From contig NZ_JBBOUI010000001.1 of assembly GCF_038005985.1 (NCBI RefSeq), forward strand, positions 763,501 to 827,500: a stretch of 64,000 nt of DNA, read 5' to 3'. This document shows, in pieces, positions 1-32,902 of this stretch. This stretch comes from Solibacillus sp. FSL R7-0682. GTDB taxonomy: Bacteria; Bacillota; Bacilli; Bacillales_A; Planococcaceae. The position numbers and the translations under genes were made by a program. Every line of letters starts with the position of its first letter. Within the stretch, counting starts at the first letter, position 1. The notes below the pieces were generated by a model. That model did no database searches. It saw only the letters and a program-made list of their open reading frames with translations, and was not told the origin of the DNA.

Positions 1-2207
1 ATCAATATGTAAAAGGAGAACAAGATCTAAATGAACTAAGGGGTAGATTAAAAGACTTTACAAATAGAACGTTAAGATCTCAAGTGCAAGAATATATTCG
101 TTATACGGAAAGAAAGACGATAACTGTTCCCTTTACGCCAGCTGACAATGAATATGAACTTTACCAATTAATTTCTGAATTTTTATTAAGAGAAGATACA
201 TATGCAATACCTAAACGACAAAGAGTATTAACCACACTGATATTGAGAAAGTTACTAGCATCATCATCATATGCAATTGCAAATACATTAAAAACAATTA
301 AGGAACGTCTCTTATTACAATACAATAATCAAGAGTATCAAGATTTAACAAATCTAAGTTCTGAAATTATTTTCGATGATGAGATGGAATATGACATTTT
401 AGAAGAACTAGAAGATGAAACAGAAGATGAAGAAATCATTGAAGATGAACCAAGTCTATCAATGGAAAAACTCAAAAAGGAAATTGAAGAATTAGAGGAT
501 TTAGAACAACGTGCCAGAATAATACAAGTGGATAGTAAAAGTAAAGCGTTACTTACAGCTATAGAAACAGGTTTTAAGGAAATGGCATCTATGAATGCTA
601 AAAGAAAAGTACTAATTTTCACTGAGTCAAAAAGAACTCAACAATACTTGAAAGATTTTTTAGAATCAAATGGCTACGCAAACAAGGTTGTTTTATTCAA
701 TGGTACAAATACGGATGTAGAATCAAAACAAATTTACGAAAAATGGCTGATTAATGATGAAAATGCACAAAATATAAGTGGCTCTAAAACAGCTGATAAA
801 AGACAAGCGTTAATTGACCATTTTAAAAATTATGCAGAAATTATGATTGCAACAGAGTCTGCAGCAGAAGGTGTAAACCTTCAATTCTGTTCTTTAATTA
901 TTAACTATGATTTACCTTGGAATCCACAGCGTATTGAACAACGAATTGGGCGTTGTCATCGCTATGGTCAAAAACATGATGTAGTAGTTATTAACTTCCT
1001 TAATAAAAGAAACGAAGCAGATATAAGAGTATTGGAGCTTCTACAAGATAAGTTTAATTTATTTGCAGGAGTATTAGGGGCATCAGATGAAGTATTGGGT
1101 ACAATTGAATCTGGTGTAGATTTTGAAAAACGTATTTTATCAATATATCAACAGTGTAGAACGCCAGAAGAAATTAATTTAGCGTTTAAACAATTACAAG
1201 ATGAATTAGAAGATCAAATAAAAAATAAGTTAGACGACACGCATCGAAGCTTACTTGAACATTTTGATGAAGATGTACATCAACGTCTAAAGATGCATGT
1301 ATCGGAAACTGTGCTACATTTAGACCGTTTCAGTCAAATGTTTTGGAATGTAACATCATATATGTTGAAGCCCTATGCAACTTTTGATGAAAAGACGTAC
1401 TCGTTTGAAGTGATAAAGCCTATACCATCTATTGAAAATAGTAATGGTAATTATCAATTGAAAATGAAAGAAAGATCTTTACAAAAGAAAACACATCAAG
1501 TGTATAGGCTGTCCCATCCAATTGGGGAAACTGTCCTTGAAATGAGTAAACTATTAAATACAGAATGTTATGAAGTTATTTTTAATATTTCAAATCATCC
1601 AACTAAAATTTCAGTAATTGAAAATTTAAAAGGTCAACGGGGGTATTTGATACTAAAAAAGCTAATAATTGTTTCTTATCAACGAGAAGAATATTTGCTG
1701 TTTAATGGATTTACTTTAGATGGTCAAACCGTTGAACCAGATATTTTTGAAAAAATGTTTAATTGTAATGCTGTTGTAAATGAGGATGTGAAGGTAAATC
1801 ATGAATTGATGCATCGATTGAAGCAGGATAGTAAACAACATGTATCTGCAACAGTTAATAAATCGCTTGAGAACAATCACCGCTTTTTCAATGAGGAGCG
1901 AGAAAGACTAGAAAAATGGGCAGATGACATGATGTATAGCGTGGAAAAAGAGTTACAGGATCTTAAGGTGAAAATTAAAGAAGTTAAAAGAAAATCCAGA
2001 CAATCCATTTCAATCGAAGAGCAGCATAAATTTCAAAAGGAACTACAAGAATTAGAAAAAATACAACGTAGGAAACGCCAGCAAATATTTGAAGCAGAAG
2101 ATGAAATTGCAGAACGTCGAGATGAATTAATTAATGAATTAGAAAATCAAATGATTCAAACCACTTTCGAGGAAGAATTATTTATAATACAATGGAGAGT
2201 TGTATAA
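1..2207 (+). CDS. SNF2-family helicase, C-terminal part (cut by left window edge)
   Basis: The frame is open to the first base (codons in phase with position 3), so the true start lies left of the window; a GTG at 84 is internal. The visible part is the second RecA-like lobe of an SNF2/RapA-type ATPase. It has motif IV (VLIFTESKRTQ, near 607), motif V (ATESAAEGVNLQ, near 850) and motif VI (QRIGRCHRYGQ, near 940). The N-terminal DExx lobe is not visible. Before motif IV there is a strongly acidic segment (385-455), and the C-terminus (about 1880-2150) is charged and probably coiled coil. The stop is 14 bases before the start of the methyltransferase gene, whose ribosome site directly follows it, so the two are cotranscribed. 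DISARM drmD and type III-linked helicases are of this kind. The role as the translocating partner of a restriction system is inferred from context. Confidence 0.8.
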   Translation, partial: QYVKGEQDLNELRGRLKDFTNRTLRSQVQEYIRYTERKTITVPFTPADNEYELYQLISEFLLREDTYAIPKRQRVLTTLILRKLLASSSYAIANTLKTIKERLLLQYNNQEYQDLTNLSSEIIFDDEMEYDILEELEDETEDEEIIEDEPSLSMEKLKKEIEELEDLEQRARIIQVDSKSKALLTAIETGFKEMASMNAKRKVLIFTESKRTQQYLKDFLESNGYANKVVLFNGTNTDVESKQIYEKWLINDENAQNISGSKTADKRQALIDHFKNYAEIMIATESAAEGVNLQFCSLIINYDLPWNPQRIEQRIGRCHRYGQKHDVVVINFLNKRNEADIRVLELLQDKFNLFAGVLGASDEVLGTIESGVDFEKRILSIYQQCRTPEEINLAFKQLQDELEDQIKNKLDDTHRSLLEHFDEDVHQRLKMHVSETVLHLDRFSQMFWNVTSYMLKPYATFDEKTYSFEVIKPIPSIENSNGNYQLKMKERSLQKKTHQVYRLSHPIGETVLEMSKLLNTECYEVIFNISNHPTKISVIENLKGQRGYLILKKLIIVSYQREEYLLFNGFTLDGQTVEPDIFEKMFNCNAVVNEDVKVNHELMHRLKQDSKQHVSATVNKSLENNHRFFNEERERLEKWADDMMYSVEKELQDLKVKIKEVKRKSRQSISIEEQHKFQKELQELEKIQRRKRQQIFEAEDEIAERRDELINELENQMIQTTFEEELFIIQWRVV

Positions 2208-2221
2208 TGAGGAGGAAGACC

Positions 2222-5200
2222 ATGAGCAAACAATTAGAAAAATTTATTTCCCTGCTTGAAGAAATGTTTCAGTTTGACCAAGCAGATTTAGATTTTGGTA
2301 TTTATCGAATTATGAATCAAAAACGTGAAGAAATTCAGAGTTTTTTAAAGAATGATTTAGTACCTCAAGTGAACGAGTCATTCGAAAAATTTAAAGGTTA
2401 TGAAGTGGATGTAATTAAGCAACAGTTAGAACAATTAGAAAAACAATTGTCAGATATGGGTGTTGCAAAAGAAAGTTCTGAGAAATATCAATCATTATCT
2501 GCAAAATTATCACAAAGTGTAGATACTATTACTTTAGAAAATGAAGTGTATTCACATTTAACTAATTTCTTTAAGCGATACTACAGTGAAGGAGATTTTA
2601 TTTCTCAAAGAAGATATAAAAAAGATGTATACGCAATTCCATATGAGGGTGAGGAAGTAAAACTACATTGGGCAAATGCAGACCAATACTACGTAAAATC
2701 ATCGGAGCAATTTAAAGATTATACATTTTCATTTAATGATGGGAAAATAGTGAACTTTAAATTGACTGATGCAACAACAGAGCAAAATAATAATAAAGAA
2801 AAAGAAGATAAAGAGCGTCGTTTTATTTTATTTGAAGAGAATCCTATTATATTGAAGGATAATGAATTAACTATCCAATTTGAATATAAAATTCCTGCTA
2901 TTCAGAAAAAGCAAGGTATCATTAATAAAGAAATTATTGACAAATTATCTTTAGCTATTTCTGAGGAAAAATGGAAATCAAGGTTATTTGCAGTGGAAGC
3001 TAGTGAGAAAGATAAAAATAGAACAGTTATCGAAAAACATTTAAATACTTATACTGCAAAAAATACATTTGATTATTTTATTCACAAGGACTTAGAAGGT
3101 TTTTTGAAGCGTGAATTAGATTTCTTTATAAAAAACGAAATTATGCATTTAGATGATTTAAATACAGAGAATGAAATTGAAATCGATAATTATTTAAGTA
3201 AAATTAAAGTCTTCAAATCAATAGGGTATAAGATTATCGGTTTTTTAGCACAATTAGAAAATTTTCAAAAGAAGCTGTGGCTGAAAAAGAAATTTGTTGT
3301 GGCAACCAATTATTGTATTACTTTAGATCGCATTCCTGAATATCTATATCCAGAAATATTAAATAATCAAAAACAAATAGATGAATGGATTAAATTATAT
3401 AAAATAAATCAAATTCAAGATGACTTACTACAAAATGGGTTTTCTGAACCTTTAACAGTAGATTTTTTAAAGCAAAACCCATATTTAGTAATCGATACTA
3501 TTCATTTTGATACTAATTTTAAAAATAGAGTTTTATCTAATTTTGATGATATTGATACAGAATTAAATGGTCTTTTAGTACATGGAGATAACTTTCAGGG
3601 CTTAAACTTAATACAAAAAAAATATAATAAAAAAATACAAGGTATTTATATTGATCCTCCATATAACACGAATGGTTCTGAAATTGTATATAAGAATGGA
3701 TATAAGGATAGTTCATGGGCTACATTAATGTACGATCGTTTATCCATAGCTAAAAAATTATTAACACCATCTGCTCCTATGTGTGTAACTATCGATGAAT
3801 ATGCAGTAGACTTGCTTGGTTATGTAATTAAACAAAGTATGTCTAATTATAAAATTAGACCAGTAATTATAGAATATAATCATCGAGGGCGTGTGAAAAA
3901 GAATTTTGCAATAACTCATGAATATGGATTATGGGTTATCCCGAATAATGAAGATGTTATAACGAAAAAACGAGAAAATTCAGAAGACATTAAAAGGAAT
4001 TTACGAAGAACTGGTACAGACTCAATGCGTACAGACTCCCCTAAACAATTCTATGGAATTGAAGTAAATAAAGAAACTTTAGAAATTGTAGGGGTTACAG
4101 ATTCACTTGATGTAAACGAACCCATCCCGCAACACAATAATCCATCTACTAAAATGATTTGGCCAATAGATGATGATGGTATTGAACGTCGATGGTACTA
4201 TGGCGTGAATAGAATAATGGACGATGTAAAAGAGGGTACTATATGGGCAAAGAAAATTAAAGGGAAAATACAAATTCATTATTTCCAGGCAGGAAAACCA
4301 AAAGCTAGAAAATCTATATGGTCAGGGTCTTTAATGGATTCGAGTACTTATGGATCTGAATTATTAAATGACATTTTTGGTTCAGGTAATGTAAATTTTT
4401 CTTTCCCAAAAAGTATACATGCTGTTCAAGAATCATTAGAAGCAATGTCTTTATTTAAAGAAGCTATATTTATGGACTTCTTTGGCGGTTCTGGAACTAC
4501 TGGTCATGCAGTTATTAATTTAAATAGAAATGATCAAGGTAATAGAAAATATATTTTAATGGAGATGGGAAGCTATTTTGATACAACAACAAAAGTTCGT
4601 ATAAAAAAGATTATTTATTCTCCAAAATGGGATAATGGAACTCCGTTAGAAAAGGGTACTAGTCATTGCTTTAAATATATTCGTTTAGAATCTTATGAAG
4701 ATACCTTAAACAACATTGAATTAAGACAAACTGAGCAGCAAAAATTAGCAATAAATGAGTATATGTCTACTAATGCAAAAGAGGAGTATATGCTTTCATA
4801 TATGTTAGAGAATGAATCTCAAGGTAGTTCATCTTTATTAAGTATCGATGCTTTTAATAATCCATTTGATTTTAAAATGAAAATCTCAAATGGAAATGAA
4901 ATAAAAATTGAATCTATAGATTTAGTAGAAACATTCAATTATTTGTTAGGTTTACACGTTAAAACAATAGACTTTATACAAGGATGTCAATTAGTGAAAG
5001 GATATTTAAGTGATGGTGATAAAATTTTAATCATTTGGCGTAATATAGAAGAAGTATCGAATGAAGAGTTGAATAAGCTACTTAAAAAATTAGATATTAA
5101 TTCACGTGATTTTGAATATAATCGTATTTATGTAAATGGAGATAATCATATTGAAAATTTAAAAGTGGATGAAAGTAATTGGAAAGTTCGACTAATCGAA

Positions 5201-5242
5201 GAAGAATTTAAAACACTTATGTTTGATGTAAATGATATTTAA
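2222..5242 (+). CDS. Type III-like (beta class) adenine DNA methyltransferase
   Basis: Predicted N6-adenine DNA methyltransferase of 1006 residues, the modification subunit of a type III-like system. The catalytic DPPY motif (D478) precedes the SAM-binding motif FFGGSGTTG (near residue 754), which is the order of the beta class that includes type III Mod subunits. The N-terminal 400 residues are largely helical and charged. The C-terminal 200 residues after the methylase core could carry target recognition or subunit contacts. I chose ATG 2222 over an upstream in-frame ATG at 2192 because GGAGG at 2211-2215 sits six bases before it, whereas 2192 lies inside the helicase gene without a ribosome site. 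The Res-like gene begins 14 bases after its stop. At over 1000 residues it is longer than classical Mod proteins (about 600-650). Confidence 0.88.
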   Translation: MSKQLEKFISLLEEMFQFDQADLDFGIYRIMNQKREEIQSFLKNDLVPQVNESFEKFKGYEVDVIKQQLEQLEKQLSDMGVAKESSEKYQSLSAKLSQSVDTITLENEVYSHLTNFFKRYYSEGDFISQRRYKKDVYAIPYEGEEVKLHWANADQYYVKSSEQFKDYTFSFNDGKIVNFKLTDATTEQNNNKEKEDKERRFILFEENPIILKDNELTIQFEYKIPAIQKKQGIINKEIIDKLSLAISEEKWKSRLFAVEASEKDKNRTVIEKHLNTYTAKNTFDYFIHKDLEGFLKRELDFFIKNEIMHLDDLNTENEIEIDNYLSKIKVFKSIGYKIIGFLAQLENFQKKLWLKKKFVVATNYCITLDRIPEYLYPEILNNQKQIDEWIKLYKINQIQDDLLQNGFSEPLTVDFLKQNPYLVIDTIHFDTNFKNRVLSNFDDIDTELNGLLVHGDNFQGLNLIQKKYNKKIQGIYIDPPYNTNGSEIVYKNGYKDSSWATLMYDRLSIAKKLLTPSAPMCVTIDEYAVDLLGYVIKQSMSNYKIRPVIIEYNHRGRVKKNFAITHEYGLWVIPNNEDVITKKRENSEDIKRNLRRTGTDSMRTDSPKQFYGIEVNKETLEIVGVTDSLDVNEPIPQHNNPSTKMIWPIDDDGIERRWYYGVNRIMDDVKEGTIWAKKIKGKIQIHYFQAGKPKARKSIWSGSLMDSSTYGSELLNDIFGSGNVNFSFPKSIHAVQESLEAMSLFKEAIFMDFFGGSGTTGHAVINLNRNDQGNRKYILMEMGSYFDTTTKVRIKKIIYSPKWDNGTPLEKGTSHCFKYIRLESYEDTLNNIELRQTEQQKLAINEYMSTNAKEEYMLSYMLENESQGSSSLLSIDAFNNPFDFKMKISNGNEIKIESIDLVETFNYLLGLHVKTIDFIQGCQLVKGYLSDGDKILIIWRNIEEVSNEELNKLLKKLDINSRDFEYNRIYVNGDNHIENLKVDESNWKVRLIEEEFKTLMFDVNDI

Positions 5243-5256
5243 GGAGAATCTAGGCT

Positions 5257-8200
5257 ATGGCGAAAAAATCGAAATTTAGTGATCAGCTCGTATTAAATCA
5301 ATACATGCTTGGATTATTTGGGGTAAATACATTTGCAAATCTAACAAATGAACTTAAAAGTGAACTGTTAGAGGATTTAACAGAAAATAATATCTCGAAA
5401 TTTCACCAGCAATTAGTTACATATTTACCAAGTTCATCTTCTTTAACTCAGGAAATGTTAAGAAGATACGATGAAAATATTATACGATATACATTTGAAA
5501 TTAGTGAAAAACGAGAAAAAAGCATTAAATGGAAGTATTTTCAATATTTAAGTTTATTGTTTACTGAGATTTACTTAGATAAATATTTTAATACAAGAGC
5601 AGAATTATTAGCTGATTTAAATGAAATATTAAGTAATATTAATCAAACCTTATCTAAAAAAGAACAAATAAACCCTTTTGTAGAAACAGATTTAAAAAAG
5701 TTGGCATTCTGGAATGCAACTGGTTCAGGAAAAACATTAATAATGCATGTCAATATAAAACAGTACCTTAACTATTTTCGCCAAAATAATGAAGGTAATC
5801 ATCTTGATAATATTATTTTATTAACACCTAGTGAAGGTTTATCAAAACAGCATGAAAGTGAATTTGTTTTATCAAATATTTCGGCAAAGTTATTTGATAA
5901 AAATGAGGGGGGCGTGTTTAGACAACAGGAAGTATCCATAATTGATATCCATAAGTTGAAAGATGAGATGGGAGACAAAACTGTAGCAATTGGAGCATTC
6001 GAAGGGAATAACCTTGTATTAGTTGATGAAGGGCATCGTGGCTCTTCAGGTGAAGAATGGAAAAGTAAGCGTGAGGAATTAAGTGAAAATGGTTTTGCTT
6101 TTGAATATTCAGCCACATTTGGTCAAGCAGTGACCAAAAAGAAAGACTTATATGATGAGTATGCAAAATGTATATTATTTGATTATTCATACCGTTATTT
6201 TTACGCTGATGGCTATGGTAAAGATTATCAAATATTGAATCTAGAAAATGATCAAGATGAAAATATTAGACGGACATATTTAACCGCTGCGATATTATCT
6301 TTTTATCAGCAACAAAAAATTTATGCGGACAATCATAGGAACTTTGCAGCTTTTTCGTTAGAAAAGCCACTATGGATTTTTGTTGGTAGTAGTGTTAATT
6401 CCCTCCGTACTGTAAAAGGTAAAAAAGTTTCAGACGTAACAGATATTTTGTTATTCCTTGCTCATTTTATAAAAAATGACCATGAAAGCATTTCAATTAT
6501 TGAATCATTAGTTAAAGGAAAATCAGGTCTTGTTAATTCGAATAATCAAGAAATATTTAATAATGCATTTCCATATATTGCAGAATTGAACATAACTACT
6601 GAAGAAGTTTATCTAGATATTATACAAACTTTATTCAATTCAAATGTTATGAATGCAACATTAAGAGTTGAAAAGTTAAAAGGTCAAGATGGGGAATTAG
6701 CCCTTAAATTGGGTGAGAGTGAACCGTTTGGTTTAATAAATGTCGGTGATTCAAATGATTTATGGAAGCTATGTGAACAATACCCTGAACTAATTACAAC
6801 TGAACGAGATTTTTCTGAATCCTACTTTGAATCGATAAACAATAAAGACTCTTCAATTAATCTATTAATAGGCTCTAAAAAGTTTACAGAAGGATGGAGT
6901 AGTTGGCGTGTCAGTTCAATGGGATTAATGAATATTGGTAAAAGTGAAGGATCACAAATCATTCAATTGTTCGGCAGAGGAGTTCGTTTAAAAGGATATC
7001 AATATGGATTGAAACGAAGCTCAGCTTTAAATATGGTTTTACCAGATATTCAAAATATCAAATATTTGAAATATAATGAGACGCTCAATATATTTGGGAT
7101 TCGTGCAGATTATATGCAACAGTTTAAAGAGTATTTAGAGGATGAAGGGATTGCGACTGAAATTGAATTTGAAGAATTAATTTTGCCAACGATTCCTACC
7201 TATGCAAAACGAAAATTGAAATTAAAAGCACTTAGATTAAAAGACGGTATCAATTTTAAATTAAATGGACCAAAACCAGAGTTAAAAAAACCAAATGGTA
7301 TAGTGTTTACTTCACAAAAAGTTATACTCAATTGGTATCCTAAAATTCAATTTAAAAGTAGTCATAAAAGCAATTTGTCATTATCACCTGTTGTTTTACA
7401 TGAAACGACATTTAAACCATACCATATAGGATTTATGAATATGGATAGTATCTATTTTGAATTACAACATTTCAAAAACGAGCGGACATGGCATAATTTA
7501 ATTTTATCCAAACAAAAGATTTGGGAATTACTATTAGATGATAGTTGGTACGTACTTCAAATACCTGAAAAAGAAATGAACTTTAATAGTTTCAAGCAAG
7601 TTCGGTATTGGGAAGAAATAGCGATTTCTTTGTTAAAAAAGTATTGTGAAAAGTATTATTTATTCGCAAAAAAACAATATGAATCCCCGCATATGGAATA
7701 CTACGAAATAGATGAAGATGATAAAAACTTCATTAATGAATATCAAGTATTGGCTGATAAAGAAAGTGAACAAACATTAATTGTAGAGTTGAAAAAACTA
7801 AAAGCTGCATTGGATAAAAAAGAATTGCTTGAAATAGAGTTTGGACAATTCAAATCATTTAAGTATGAAAATCATTTGTATGAACCATTAATTTCGTATG
7901 ATGGAAAAAGCTCTACCGTGAAAATAAAACCAGTATCTTTAAACAAAGATGAACATCAATTTTTAATTGACTTACGAAATTATTATGAGACGCATTCTTC
8001 GTTCTTTAATAAAAAAGAATTATATGTGTTAAGAAATCAATCTCGTGGAAGAGGTATAGGATTTTTTGAAGCAGGCAATTTCCATCCTGATTTTATTATT
8101 TGGCTGGTTTCAGAAGGTAAACAGTTTATTACATTTGCAGATCCAAAAGGTATAAGGAATTTATCGATTGACGATCCAAAAGTGGAATTTGCTTCAACAA

Positions 8201-8403
8201 TTAAAGAACTAGAAGCAGAGTTAGCAGATCCTAATGTGGTTTTAAATTCATTTATAATTTCTAATACTCCATTTGAATCATTGATTAACACGGGAACGAC
8301 TCTTACTAAAGAAGAAATGAATCAAAAGCATATTTTATTCCAATATGATGATGAAAATACTTATATTCAAAAGATGTTTGATGCCATTAAACCAATTAGT
8401 TGA
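5257..8403 (+). CDS. Type III restriction-like helicase-endonuclease
   Basis: 1048-residue predicted restriction subunit: a DEAD/DEAH-type superfamily 2 ATPase fused to a PD-(D/E)xK nuclease. Visible motifs in order are Walker A ATGSGKT (154-160), Walker B DEGH (257-260), motif III-like YSATFG (about 285), motif VI QLFGRGVR, and a C-terminal nuclease motif FHPDF (P944-D945) followed by DPK (D962, K964). The family usually has ExK as the last element; here it is DxK, which is allowed in this superfamily. In type III systems Res needs Mod and ATP to cut between head-to-head sites. The ATG is preceded by AGGAG near 5243. The gene ends the defence operon, and the next 1.2 kb is decayed DNA. Confidence 0.85.
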   Translation: MAKKSKFSDQLVLNQYMLGLFGVNTFANLTNELKSELLEDLTENNISKFHQQLVTYLPSSSSLTQEMLRRYDENIIRYTFEISEKREKSIKWKYFQYLSLLFTEIYLDKYFNTRAELLADLNEILSNINQTLSKKEQINPFVETDLKKLAFWNATGSGKTLIMHVNIKQYLNYFRQNNEGNHLDNIILLTPSEGLSKQHESEFVLSNISAKLFDKNEGGVFRQQEVSIIDIHKLKDEMGDKTVAIGAFEGNNLVLVDEGHRGSSGEEWKSKREELSENGFAFEYSATFGQAVTKKKDLYDEYAKCILFDYSYRYFYADGYGKDYQILNLENDQDENIRRTYLTAAILSFYQQQKIYADNHRNFAAFSLEKPLWIFVGSSVNSLRTVKGKKVSDVTDILLFLAHFIKNDHESISIIESLVKGKSGLVNSNNQEIFNNAFPYIAELNITTEEVYLDIIQTLFNSNVMNATLRVEKLKGQDGELALKLGESEPFGLINVGDSNDLWKLCEQYPELITTERDFSESYFESINNKDSSINLLIGSKKFTEGWSSWRVSSMGLMNIGKSEGSQIIQLFGRGVRLKGYQYGLKRSSALNMVLPDIQNIKYLKYNETLNIFGIRADYMQQFKEYLEDEGIATEIEFEELILPTIPTYAKRKLKLKALRLKDGINFKLNGPKPELKKPNGIVFTSQKVILNWYPKIQFKSSHKSNLSLSPVVLHETTFKPYHIGFMNMDSIYFELQHFKNERTWHNLILSKQKIWELLLDDSWYVLQIPEKEMNFNSFKQVRYWEEIAISLLKKYCEKYYLFAKKQYESPHMEYYEIDEDDKNFINEYQVLADKESEQTLIVELKKLKAALDKKELLEIEFGQFKSFKYENHLYEPLISYDGKSSTVKIKPVSLNKDEHQFLIDLRNYYETHSSFFNKKELYVLRNQSRGRGIGFFEAGNFHPDFIIWLVSEGKQFITFADPKGIRNLSIDDPKVEFASTIKELEAELADPNVVLNSFIISNTPFESLINTGTTLTKEEMNQKHILFQYDDENTYIQKMFDAIKPIS

Positions 8404-31571: not shown

Positions 31572-32000
31572 ATGAGTAAAATAATTTTTAACGAACATCA
31601 ACGTCGACAAATTGAACAGAATCCAAATGTCGTTTTGATAACCGATCGATCTATTCAATATACAGTAGCTTTCAAATTAAAAGCTGTTCAAGAAAATCTA
31701 AAAGGCAAAGGGCCTACCGAAATCTTCAAAGCTGCAGGCTTTGATTTAGAAATCATCGGGATTAAAAAAGTTCAAAGTGCTGTTCATAGGTGGAAGAAAA
31801 TTTATCAAACATACGGTGAGGATGGTTTTACACAAGAGCGTCGTGGAAAAGGCAGTACAGGTCGCCCACGTGCCGAAAAATTATCAGCTGATAAAAAGTT
31901 AGAGAAAGCAGAAGCTCGTATTCATCTATTGGAAGCAGAGCTAGCGCTCTTAAAAAAGCTCGACGAAATGGAAAGGCAGGCGAAGAAGAATCGTTTTTAA
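31572..32000 (+). CDS. IS3-family transposase OrfA (helix-turn-helix)
   Basis: 142 residues with the N-terminal DNA-binding domain (TVAFKLKAVQENLKG, VQSAVHRWKKIYQTYG) and a C-terminal leucine-zipper-like helix (LEKAEARIHLLEAELALLKK). It recognises the element's ends. A canonical A AAA AAG slippery heptamer at 31952-31958 lies in its 3' part; a -1 shift there continues into orfB to give the OrfAB transposase. The ATG follows GGGAGAAC. Confidence 0.92.
   Translation: MSKIIFNEHQRRQIEQNPNVVLITDRSIQYTVAFKLKAVQENLKGKGPTEIFKAAGFDLEIIGIKKVQSAVHRWKKIYQTYGEDGFTQERRGKGSTGRPRAEKLSADKKLEKAEARIHLLEAELALLKKLDEMERQAKKNRF
31952..31958 (+). promoter_or_regulatory. Programmed -1 frameshift site of the IS3 element
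   Basis: AAAAAAG read as A AAA AAG in the orfA frame. After slipping back one base the frame stays open through ESFLTPKEKYQAISETIRL into orfB, so one fused OrfAB protein can be made. This is the standard expression mode of IS3-family transposases. Confidence 0.85.
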
Positions 32001-32059
32001 CACCCAAAGAAAAATATCAAGCAATCAGTGAAACGATTCGATTATTTCAACTCAAAAAT

Positions 32060-32902
32060 ATGACACGGTATCTTTGTGAAGTAGCAAATGTCAGCTCGAG
32101 TGGTTACTATAAATGGCGACAAAATATGGAGAAACATTCATTACGTGAAGAAGCTGATTATCAAGATTATCTTTTACTAAAAGTAATCTATGATGAAGCA
32201 AAAGGCAAAATTGGTTATCGAGGGTTTTATATGGAACTGGTGGACCAATTAGGGAAACCGATGAACCATAAAAAAATTCTTCGATTGATGCGTAAATTTA
32301 ATTTGTATGCGAAGGTTCGTCGTGCCAATCCTTATCGACTTATAGAAAAAGCGAATGAAGCACATCGTCAAATTCCAAATTACTTAAATCGGGCATTCAA
32401 ACAAGACGAGCCAGGAAAAGTCTTCTTAACAGACATTACCTATCTCCAATATAAGGGTGGCCGTACGGCTTATTTATCATGTGTAAAAGATGTCGCAACA
32501 AGAGAAATCGTTGCGTATAAACTAGCTACTACTCTTAAATTGTCGATTGTTTATGAAACACTTGAACAATTAAAACATCATTTGGATGGGAATCTTCATC
32601 CGGAAGCAATGATTCATTCGGATCAGGGGTTTCATTATACGCATCCAGGATTTCAGAAGCTTGTGAAAGACATGGGGTTAAAACAATCTATGTCACGTCG
32701 AGGAAACTGTCTAGATAATGCGCCAATGGAATCGTTCTTTGGTCATTTTAAAGATGAAGTCGATTATCATGAAGCTGAAAGTTTCACGGAGCTACATACA
32801 CAAGTCATTGACTATATCACGCATTACAACCACACAAGAAAGCAATGGACATTAAAAAAGATGACTCCGGCGAGTTACCGAAGTCATCTAATCGCAGCCT
32901 AA
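32060..32902 (+). CDS. IS3-family transposase OrfB (DDE catalytic domain)
   Basis: 280 residues from ATG 32060; as a frameshift product the domain begins earlier, after the slippery site. Integrase-core residues are visible: D in FLTDITYL, D in IHSDQGFHY and E in DNAPMESFFG, giving the DDE triad, plus the HTH_21-like GYRGFYMELV segment. It cuts and joins the element's ends. Intact. Confidence 0.93.
   Translation: MTRYLCEVANVSSSGYYKWRQNMEKHSLREEADYQDYLLLKVIYDEAKGKIGYRGFYMELVDQLGKPMNHKKILRLMRKFNLYAKVRRANPYRLIEKANEAHRQIPNYLNRAFKQDEPGKVFLTDITYLQYKGGRTAYLSCVKDVATREIVAYKLATTLKLSIVYETLEQLKHHLDGNLHPEAMIHSDQGFHYTHPGFQKLVKDMGLKQSMSRRGNCLDNAPMESFFGHFKDEVDYHEAESFTELHTQVIDYITHYNHTRKQWTLKKMTPASYRSHLIAA

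Follow-up and report, generated by a model that had tools for sequence, protein, structure and literature searches.

The first 8403 positions of the analysed window, a 64,000-nucleotide stretch of the Solibacillus sp. FSL R7-0682 genome (G000:C1:763501-827500), hold the right-hand part of a tight operon that, by open reading frame (ORF) calling, encodes an SNF2 ATPase, a modification subunit (Mod) and a restriction subunit (Res), in that order and all on the plus strand. This operon is almost certainly a type III restriction-modification (R-M) system, and the best overall explanation, which we consider very probable, is a complete three-gene system of the Eco86II kind, located next to an integrase. 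We likewise think it very likely that the SNF2 protein is a functional part of this type III system. The combination of genes is not new; the window operon joins three-gene type III systems that have already been described. Its features, in window positions, are as follows.

3..2207, open at the left edge, plus strand: SNF2/RapA-like ATPase, C-terminal 734 residues (ORF calling, PADLOC, NCBIfam, AF2 model)
939..953, plus strand: SNF2 helicase motif VI, QRIGR, invariant in 25 relatives
2222..5242, plus strand: mod, type III DNA methyltransferase/specificity subunit, 1006 aa (MTase_III PDLC03646, 736 bits; N6_N4_Mtase)
3653..3664, plus strand: Mod catalytic motif IV, DPPY, residue 478
3782..4441, plus strand: Mod target-recognition region, about residues 521-740, replaced between close relatives
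4481..4495, plus strand: Mod AdoMet motif I, FGGSG, residue 754
5257..8403, plus strand: res, type III restriction subunit, SF2 ATPase plus PD-(D/E)XK nuclease, 1048 aa (REase_III PDLC03654, 784 bits; ResIII)
5713..5736, plus strand: Res Walker A, NATGSGKT, residues 153-160, invariant in 5 relatives
6025..6036, plus strand: Res Walker B, DEGH, residues 257-260, invariant in 5 relatives
8086..8148, plus strand: Res nuclease motif PD...DPK, residues 944-964; P944, D945, D962, P963 and K964 invariant in 5 relatives

The window itself shows the C-terminal three quarters of the SNF2 protein, and the sequence was extended leftward to obtain the full gene. The complete protein has 961 aa, its first 226 codons lying left of the window, and starts at a GTG codon (L003:7322) 679 bases before window position 1. 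A second in-frame ATG for mod, at 2192, would add 10 residues; the start at 2222, which gives the 1006-aa form, lines up with the first residue of Mod in the Eco86II host. Gaps of 14 bases separate both the SNF2 stop (2207) from the Mod start (2222) and the Mod stop (5242) from the Res start (5257), and mod and res are adjacent in a single operon, as type III R-M requires. With these spacings and three complete products, the tight three-gene operon described in the earlier note is confirmed. Judged by its sequence, the operon is real and intact, with the expected motifs present in all three proteins: the N6_N4_Mtase, ResIII and Helicase_C families scored above their Pfam cut-offs among the operon proteins, the SNF2 motifs DEVGLGKT, DEAH and QRIGR showed no variation across the 25 relatives, and residues D478, P479 and P480 of Mod were invariant among 34. 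The order of the Mod motifs, DPPY (478) and then FGGSG (754), is that of the beta class, and the best Foldseek match of Mod was the Mod subunit of EcoP15I; no other protein of the genome passes the N6_N4_Mtase cut-off. The same note's motif claims (an SNF2-type ATPase, a Mod with DPPY before FGGSG, and a Res with PD...DPK) thus hold, and the key residues are invariant in relatives.

Murray et al. (2021) described type III m4C systems, of which Eco86II and BspHIV carry an extra SF2-helicase-like gene 5' of mod, and counted over 500 genomes in which such a gene lies near Mod-Res (PMC8259958). In that study, Eco86II methylated GAGCC (m4C) and cut about 25 bp from its site, the helicase-like ATPase was not needed for methylation, and partially purified Eco86II cut DNA in a preparation in which SNF2 peptides were not detectable (PMC8259958). 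We located an SNF2-Mod-Res operon in the chromosome of E. coli NCTC86 (NZ_LT601384, 5,046,030-5,055,447); its identification as Eco86II rests on the identity of the strain, the layout, and the published statement that a single type III system is present in five of the six strains studied, Acinetobacter sp. H being the exception (PMC8259958). The window operon matched that of NCTC86 end to end and in the same gene order, with identities of 54 % for SNF2 (spanning 961 aa), 36 % for Mod and 39 % for Res; the end-to-end SNF2 match rules out that the published system is built on a different helicase family. PDLC03646 and PDLC03654 are the best PADLOC matches for both operons and match the NCTC86 Mod and Res over their full length with more than 2,200 bits, so type III models built around this Mod-Res family already exist. 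The two operons differ in host and mobile element, and the recognition region of the window Mod is unrelated to that of NCTC86. Production of m4C is not a necessary feature of the Eco86II-type layout. Set against these data, the suggestion that the locus may be a distinct system is not supported, and the accompanying statement that classical type III systems comprise only Mod and Res was overstated, a third helicase-like gene having been described in 2021. Within the open-access literature, Murray et al. (2021) was the only work found on the SNF2 protein of type III systems. A small HTH protein upstream in some E. coli copies carries the NCBI name 'MAD1', hinting at MADS, a link for which nothing was found in the literature.

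With the canonical two-gene type III enzymes EcoP15I and Mbo45V, the operon has in common a beta-class Mod and a Res that joins an SF2 ATPase to a PD-(D/E)XK nuclease; it differs from them in the length of Mod (1006 vs. 644 aa, with a long N-terminal extension), in a Res that gave no match in a sequence search of the PDB, and in the extra SNF2 gene.

DISARM is marked by drmA, a YprA-type helicase, and drmB, a DUF1998/MZB protein. The likeness of the window operon to DISARM class 1 lies in an SNF2 ATPase (there DrmD) placed beside a methylase, and the top PADLOC and NCBIfam matches of the SNF2 protein are indeed DrmD models (PDLC02619, 659 bits; DrmD_b, 664 bits). Both NCBI DrmD cut-offs were missed, however (664 vs. 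950 and 301 vs. 610 bits); the methylase and the third protein are MTase_III and REase_III; the neighbouring genes listed, as far as 18 kb to the left and 5 kb to the right, included no drmA, drmB or drmC; and the sole MZB-domain protein of the genome, a 767-aa protein that we take to be about the size of the housekeeping YprA, is encoded at 2.67 Mb, far from the operon. On these grounds, reading the locus as DISARM class 1, made up of drmD plus a methylase of the drmM type, is extremely improbable and was ruled out. The earlier note's separation of the locus from DISARM was accordingly upheld by the leftward extension, which gave an integrase, an HNH protein and a retron-type reverse transcriptase and no drmA or drmB homologues; its proposal that the locus combines the DISARM and type III plans was not, the resemblance between the SNF2 protein and DrmD being that found between any two RapA-like SNF2 proteins. 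Among the neighbouring ORFs scanned, none was recognised as PglZ, BrxC or PglX of BREX. BrxHII of BREX type 3 is RapA-like in architecture (PMC12839542), and the window SNF2 protein likewise resembles RapA along its whole length, with different partner genes.

The operon sits within a defence island. To the left of the SNF2 gene, about 3.3 kb without long ORFs is followed by genes for a 118-aa HTH_17 protein and a tyrosine integrase on the minus strand, and beyond the integrase lie genes for an EVE-HNH protein and a retron-type reverse transcriptase and, farther out, for a ThsB-like TIR protein among other island genes. The reverse transcriptase (PADLOC RT_VI, 247 bits) and the EVE-HNH protein (L002:9286-10302 and L003:386-1987) possibly form a retron or another defence unit, and the gene for the ThsB-like TIR protein (PDLC00430, 253 bits) overlaps that for a small PDC-M50A protein, a candidate defence family (L002:971-2156). 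Between the integrase genes and the operon, 2.5 kb (L003:4091-6581; G000:C1:759591-762081) contain three distinct non-coding tandem arrays, of 98 bp x 3.8, about 345 bp x 3.8, and about 100 bp x 3-4, which occur at one place only in the genome. Solibacillus faecavium keeps all three but in other copy numbers (99 bp x 2.8, 349 bp x 2.6, and 86 bp x 2.3), and an Rfam scan over 36 kb that included them gave no match. To the right of res, genes for a 307-aa and a 553-aa protein both lack a family match; farther into the window (31572-32902), adjacent ORFs of 142 and 280 aa resemble, by eye, an IS3-family gene pair.

We surveyed the association of SNF2 with Mod-Res in both directions. In the forward survey, a profile of five Res proteins was run against 84,980 genomes, and the best 80 of 306 relatives were kept. 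These 80 come from more than 12 phyla (Bacillota, Planctomycetota, Verrucomicrobiota, Chloroflexota, Actinomycetota, Nitrospirota, Acidobacteriota, Pseudomonadota, Deinococcota, Chlorobiota, Bacteroidota, Myxococcota and others), the closest locus among them being that of S. faecavium (L015), of the same genus as the window genome. The presence of SNF2 was scored by ORF calling and profile search, with tblastn for missed genes, at the 59 loci with enough sequence left of mod; the other 21 were cut off by contig ends. An SNF2 gene lay upstream on the same strand in 54 of the 59 (in a few frameshifted, in some with genes inserted before mod), one locus (L066) had an SNF2 remnant, and four (L025, L042, L044 and L064) had none despite at least about 5 kb of sequence. 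The resulting 92 % is valid for the near neighbourhood only, because the best 80 are the closest relatives, and L036, L076 and L094 are near-copies. Res relatives occurred in 30 of an evenly drawn sample of 398 Bacillota genomes, and at the 12 loci with upstream room, excluding our own, SNF2 was present in two and absent in ten; clostridial Mod-Res pairs are mostly two-gene systems. A quick Res tree with long branches, relied upon for its overall pattern and not for single branches, contained a 92-row clade with 59 SNF2-bearing members, 7 without, 25 undetermined and 1 remnant, and a 15-row clade lacking any SNF2 (11 without, 4 undetermined). The long Mod-Res family is thus found here, for the first time, to split into SNF2-bearing and SNF2-less clades. 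The Bacillota sample and the tree rule out that SNF2 is universal in this family, and since many Mod-Res pairs of the wider family lack it, SNF2 is not mechanistically obligatory.

The reverse survey searched the same 398 genomes for the SNF2 clade itself (profile A2, E <= 1e-150). Members were present in nine genomes, and all nine adjoin mod and res: three (our own, G318 and G511) lie beside a long pair, and six beside a shorter pair (about 530-650 and 890-990 aa). BLAST similarity between a short-type Res and the window Res was not beyond chance (E = 0.13), and the short-type and window Mods have the catalytic core alone in common. As SNF2 stands beside both long and short pairs, a single SNF2 clade is shared by two or more type III families; this uniform association with two Res families that lack detectable sequence similarity is new here. 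Mod and res were also downstream in all ten plasmid SNF2 loci read. Among complete E. coli genomes, SNF2 relatives occurred in 248 of 5,426, and three further loci there showed three layouts. The co-occurrence of the helicase with Mod-Res, on which the earlier note had made its case depend, is therefore far beyond chance in both directions.

Several loci carried other genes in or around the SNF2 position. On SNF2-less plasmids of Priestia and Athalassotoga, a UvrD helicase fused to a PD-(D/E)XK nuclease occupies the SNF2 slot beside Mod-Res (L012:6075-9020 and L014:6253-9039). A short-type three-gene operon of E. coli NCTC9082 (L106:15379-18756) has an AAA ATPase and an S8 subtilisin-like peptidase between SNF2 and mod, i.e., a protease module within an R-M operon. 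Recurrent inserts between mod and res (L036, L050, L055, L068 and others) encode Fic, a DUF1016/YhcG nuclease, AAA plus DUF4276 (RloA/RloB-like), RhuM, and DUF262-like proteins.

Comparison with close relatives separated the behavior of Mod from that of its two partners. Between the window operon and that of S. faecavium, SNF2 is 97 % and Res 94 % identical, but Mod only 58 %; the recognition region is 17-53 % identical, with values of 17-35 % across residues 521-720, in contrast to about 90-100 % near both ends of the protein. Two further operon pairs showed the same Mod pattern, and across the pairs SNF2 is 96-97 % and Res 94-98 % identical. Such a swap of the recognition region between near-identical operons, also new here, is the expected signature of a specificity gene under diversification. 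Pairwise distances across 52 complete operons gave correlations of 0.93 for Mod-Res, 0.80-0.81 for SNF2-Res (permutation maximum, 0.31), and 0.75 for SNF2-Mod. The partial correlation was 0.44 for SNF2-Res with Mod held fixed and 0.02 for SNF2-Mod with Res held fixed, and its direction was the same in 300 of 300 subsamples. That SNF2 divergence tracks Res rather than Mod, likewise a new observation, hints that SNF2 may work with Res, and is consistent with the published dispensability of the ATPase for methylation (PMC8259958). The partial correlation is a hint and not proof because the operons share ancestry and Mod is noisier; the faster, noisier evolution of Mod could explain it in part. 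Together with the co-occurrence and the constant gene order, the co-divergence with Res supports the proposal, first made as an inference, that the helicase belongs to the system.

The fold of the SNF2 protein offers a clue to its role. The AlphaFold model of a 97 % identical relative (mean pLDDT, 75) had RapA as its best, full-length Foldseek match, with Mot1 also among the matches, and RapA was the nearest solved protein by sequence as well; the predicted structure thus indicates that SNF2 is RapA-like throughout its length, which is new here. Both RapA and Mot1 act on proteins bound to DNA, which they displace or recycle. For the complex, the cleavage rule and the part played by SNF2, we infer the following scheme. 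Mod, probably as a dimer, would use its recognition region to read a short, asymmetric site and would methylate one base on one strand, as either m4C or m6A (the sequence cannot decide), so supplying both the specificity of the system and the protection of the cell's own DNA. A Mod2-Res complex would bind unmodified sites, where the Res motor would fire, and by analogy with EcoP15I and Eco86II, two Mod-Res complexes meeting from inverted sites would cut the DNA. SNF2, dedicated to such systems, would be a RapA-like motor that actively translocates on double-stranded DNA; most likely it would aid restriction rather than modification, for instance by clearing proteins off the DNA so that sliding Mod-Res complexes can move and meet. 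We regard the chances that SNF2 acts at the restriction step as about even, and the specific task of clearing roadblocks as a tentative proposal.

A RapA-like motor could also serve the host: SNF2 may evict Mod-Res from host DNA at forks and newly exposed sites, in the manner of RapA or Mot1, and so lessen self-damage. The architecture and the Mot1 fold match would suit such a function, as would the dispensability of the ATPase for both methylation and in vitro cleavage (PMC8259958), and a divergence that follows Res is what a partner acting on Res would show. Numerous Mod-Res relatives do without SNF2, however, and therefore self-damage must be tolerable or otherwise controlled, leaving host protection rather unlikely in our judgment. 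Those same two-gene relatives, and the cutting by an SNF2-free Eco86II fraction (PMC8259958), are what would be expected if SNF2 were an unrelated defence gene travelling beside a two-gene type III system. A mere traveller is hard to reconcile with the invariable company of Mod-Res at the Bacillota and plasmid SNF2 loci, with a gene order constant over more than 12 phyla and a spacing of about 15 bases or a slight overlap in many operons, and with an SNF2-Res correlation so far above the permutation maximum; we consider it improbable. Equally improbable, we believe, is that SNF2 senses damage or stalling and summons inserted effectors (Fic, AIPR, Abi, RloA/RloB, a DUF1016 nuclease, or AAA plus subtilase) as a second line once restriction fails. 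Insertions of this kind do recur between SNF2, mod and res, yet they are lacking from the window operon and from many others; SNF2 must therefore have a role that does not depend on them.

The usual teaching gives type III enzymes two subunits, and a conserved second motor in many of them is a clear and testable gap. A broader picture, which we offer as speculative and on the whole doubtful, is that an SNF2 clade dedicated to at least two type III families supplies a RapA-like, protein-stripping motor at the restriction step, that the UvrD-nuclease fusion may substitute for it in the same slot, and that many type III enzymes would thus be two-motor machines. For annotation, the locus should be recorded as type III R-M and not as DISARM, and automatic tools may mislabel its SNF2 gene as DrmD. 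For the biology of the family, a motor that follows Res, is RapA-like, is common to two Mod-Res families, and is missing in a sister clade narrows down what SNF2 might do and supplies natural comparisons for finding out.
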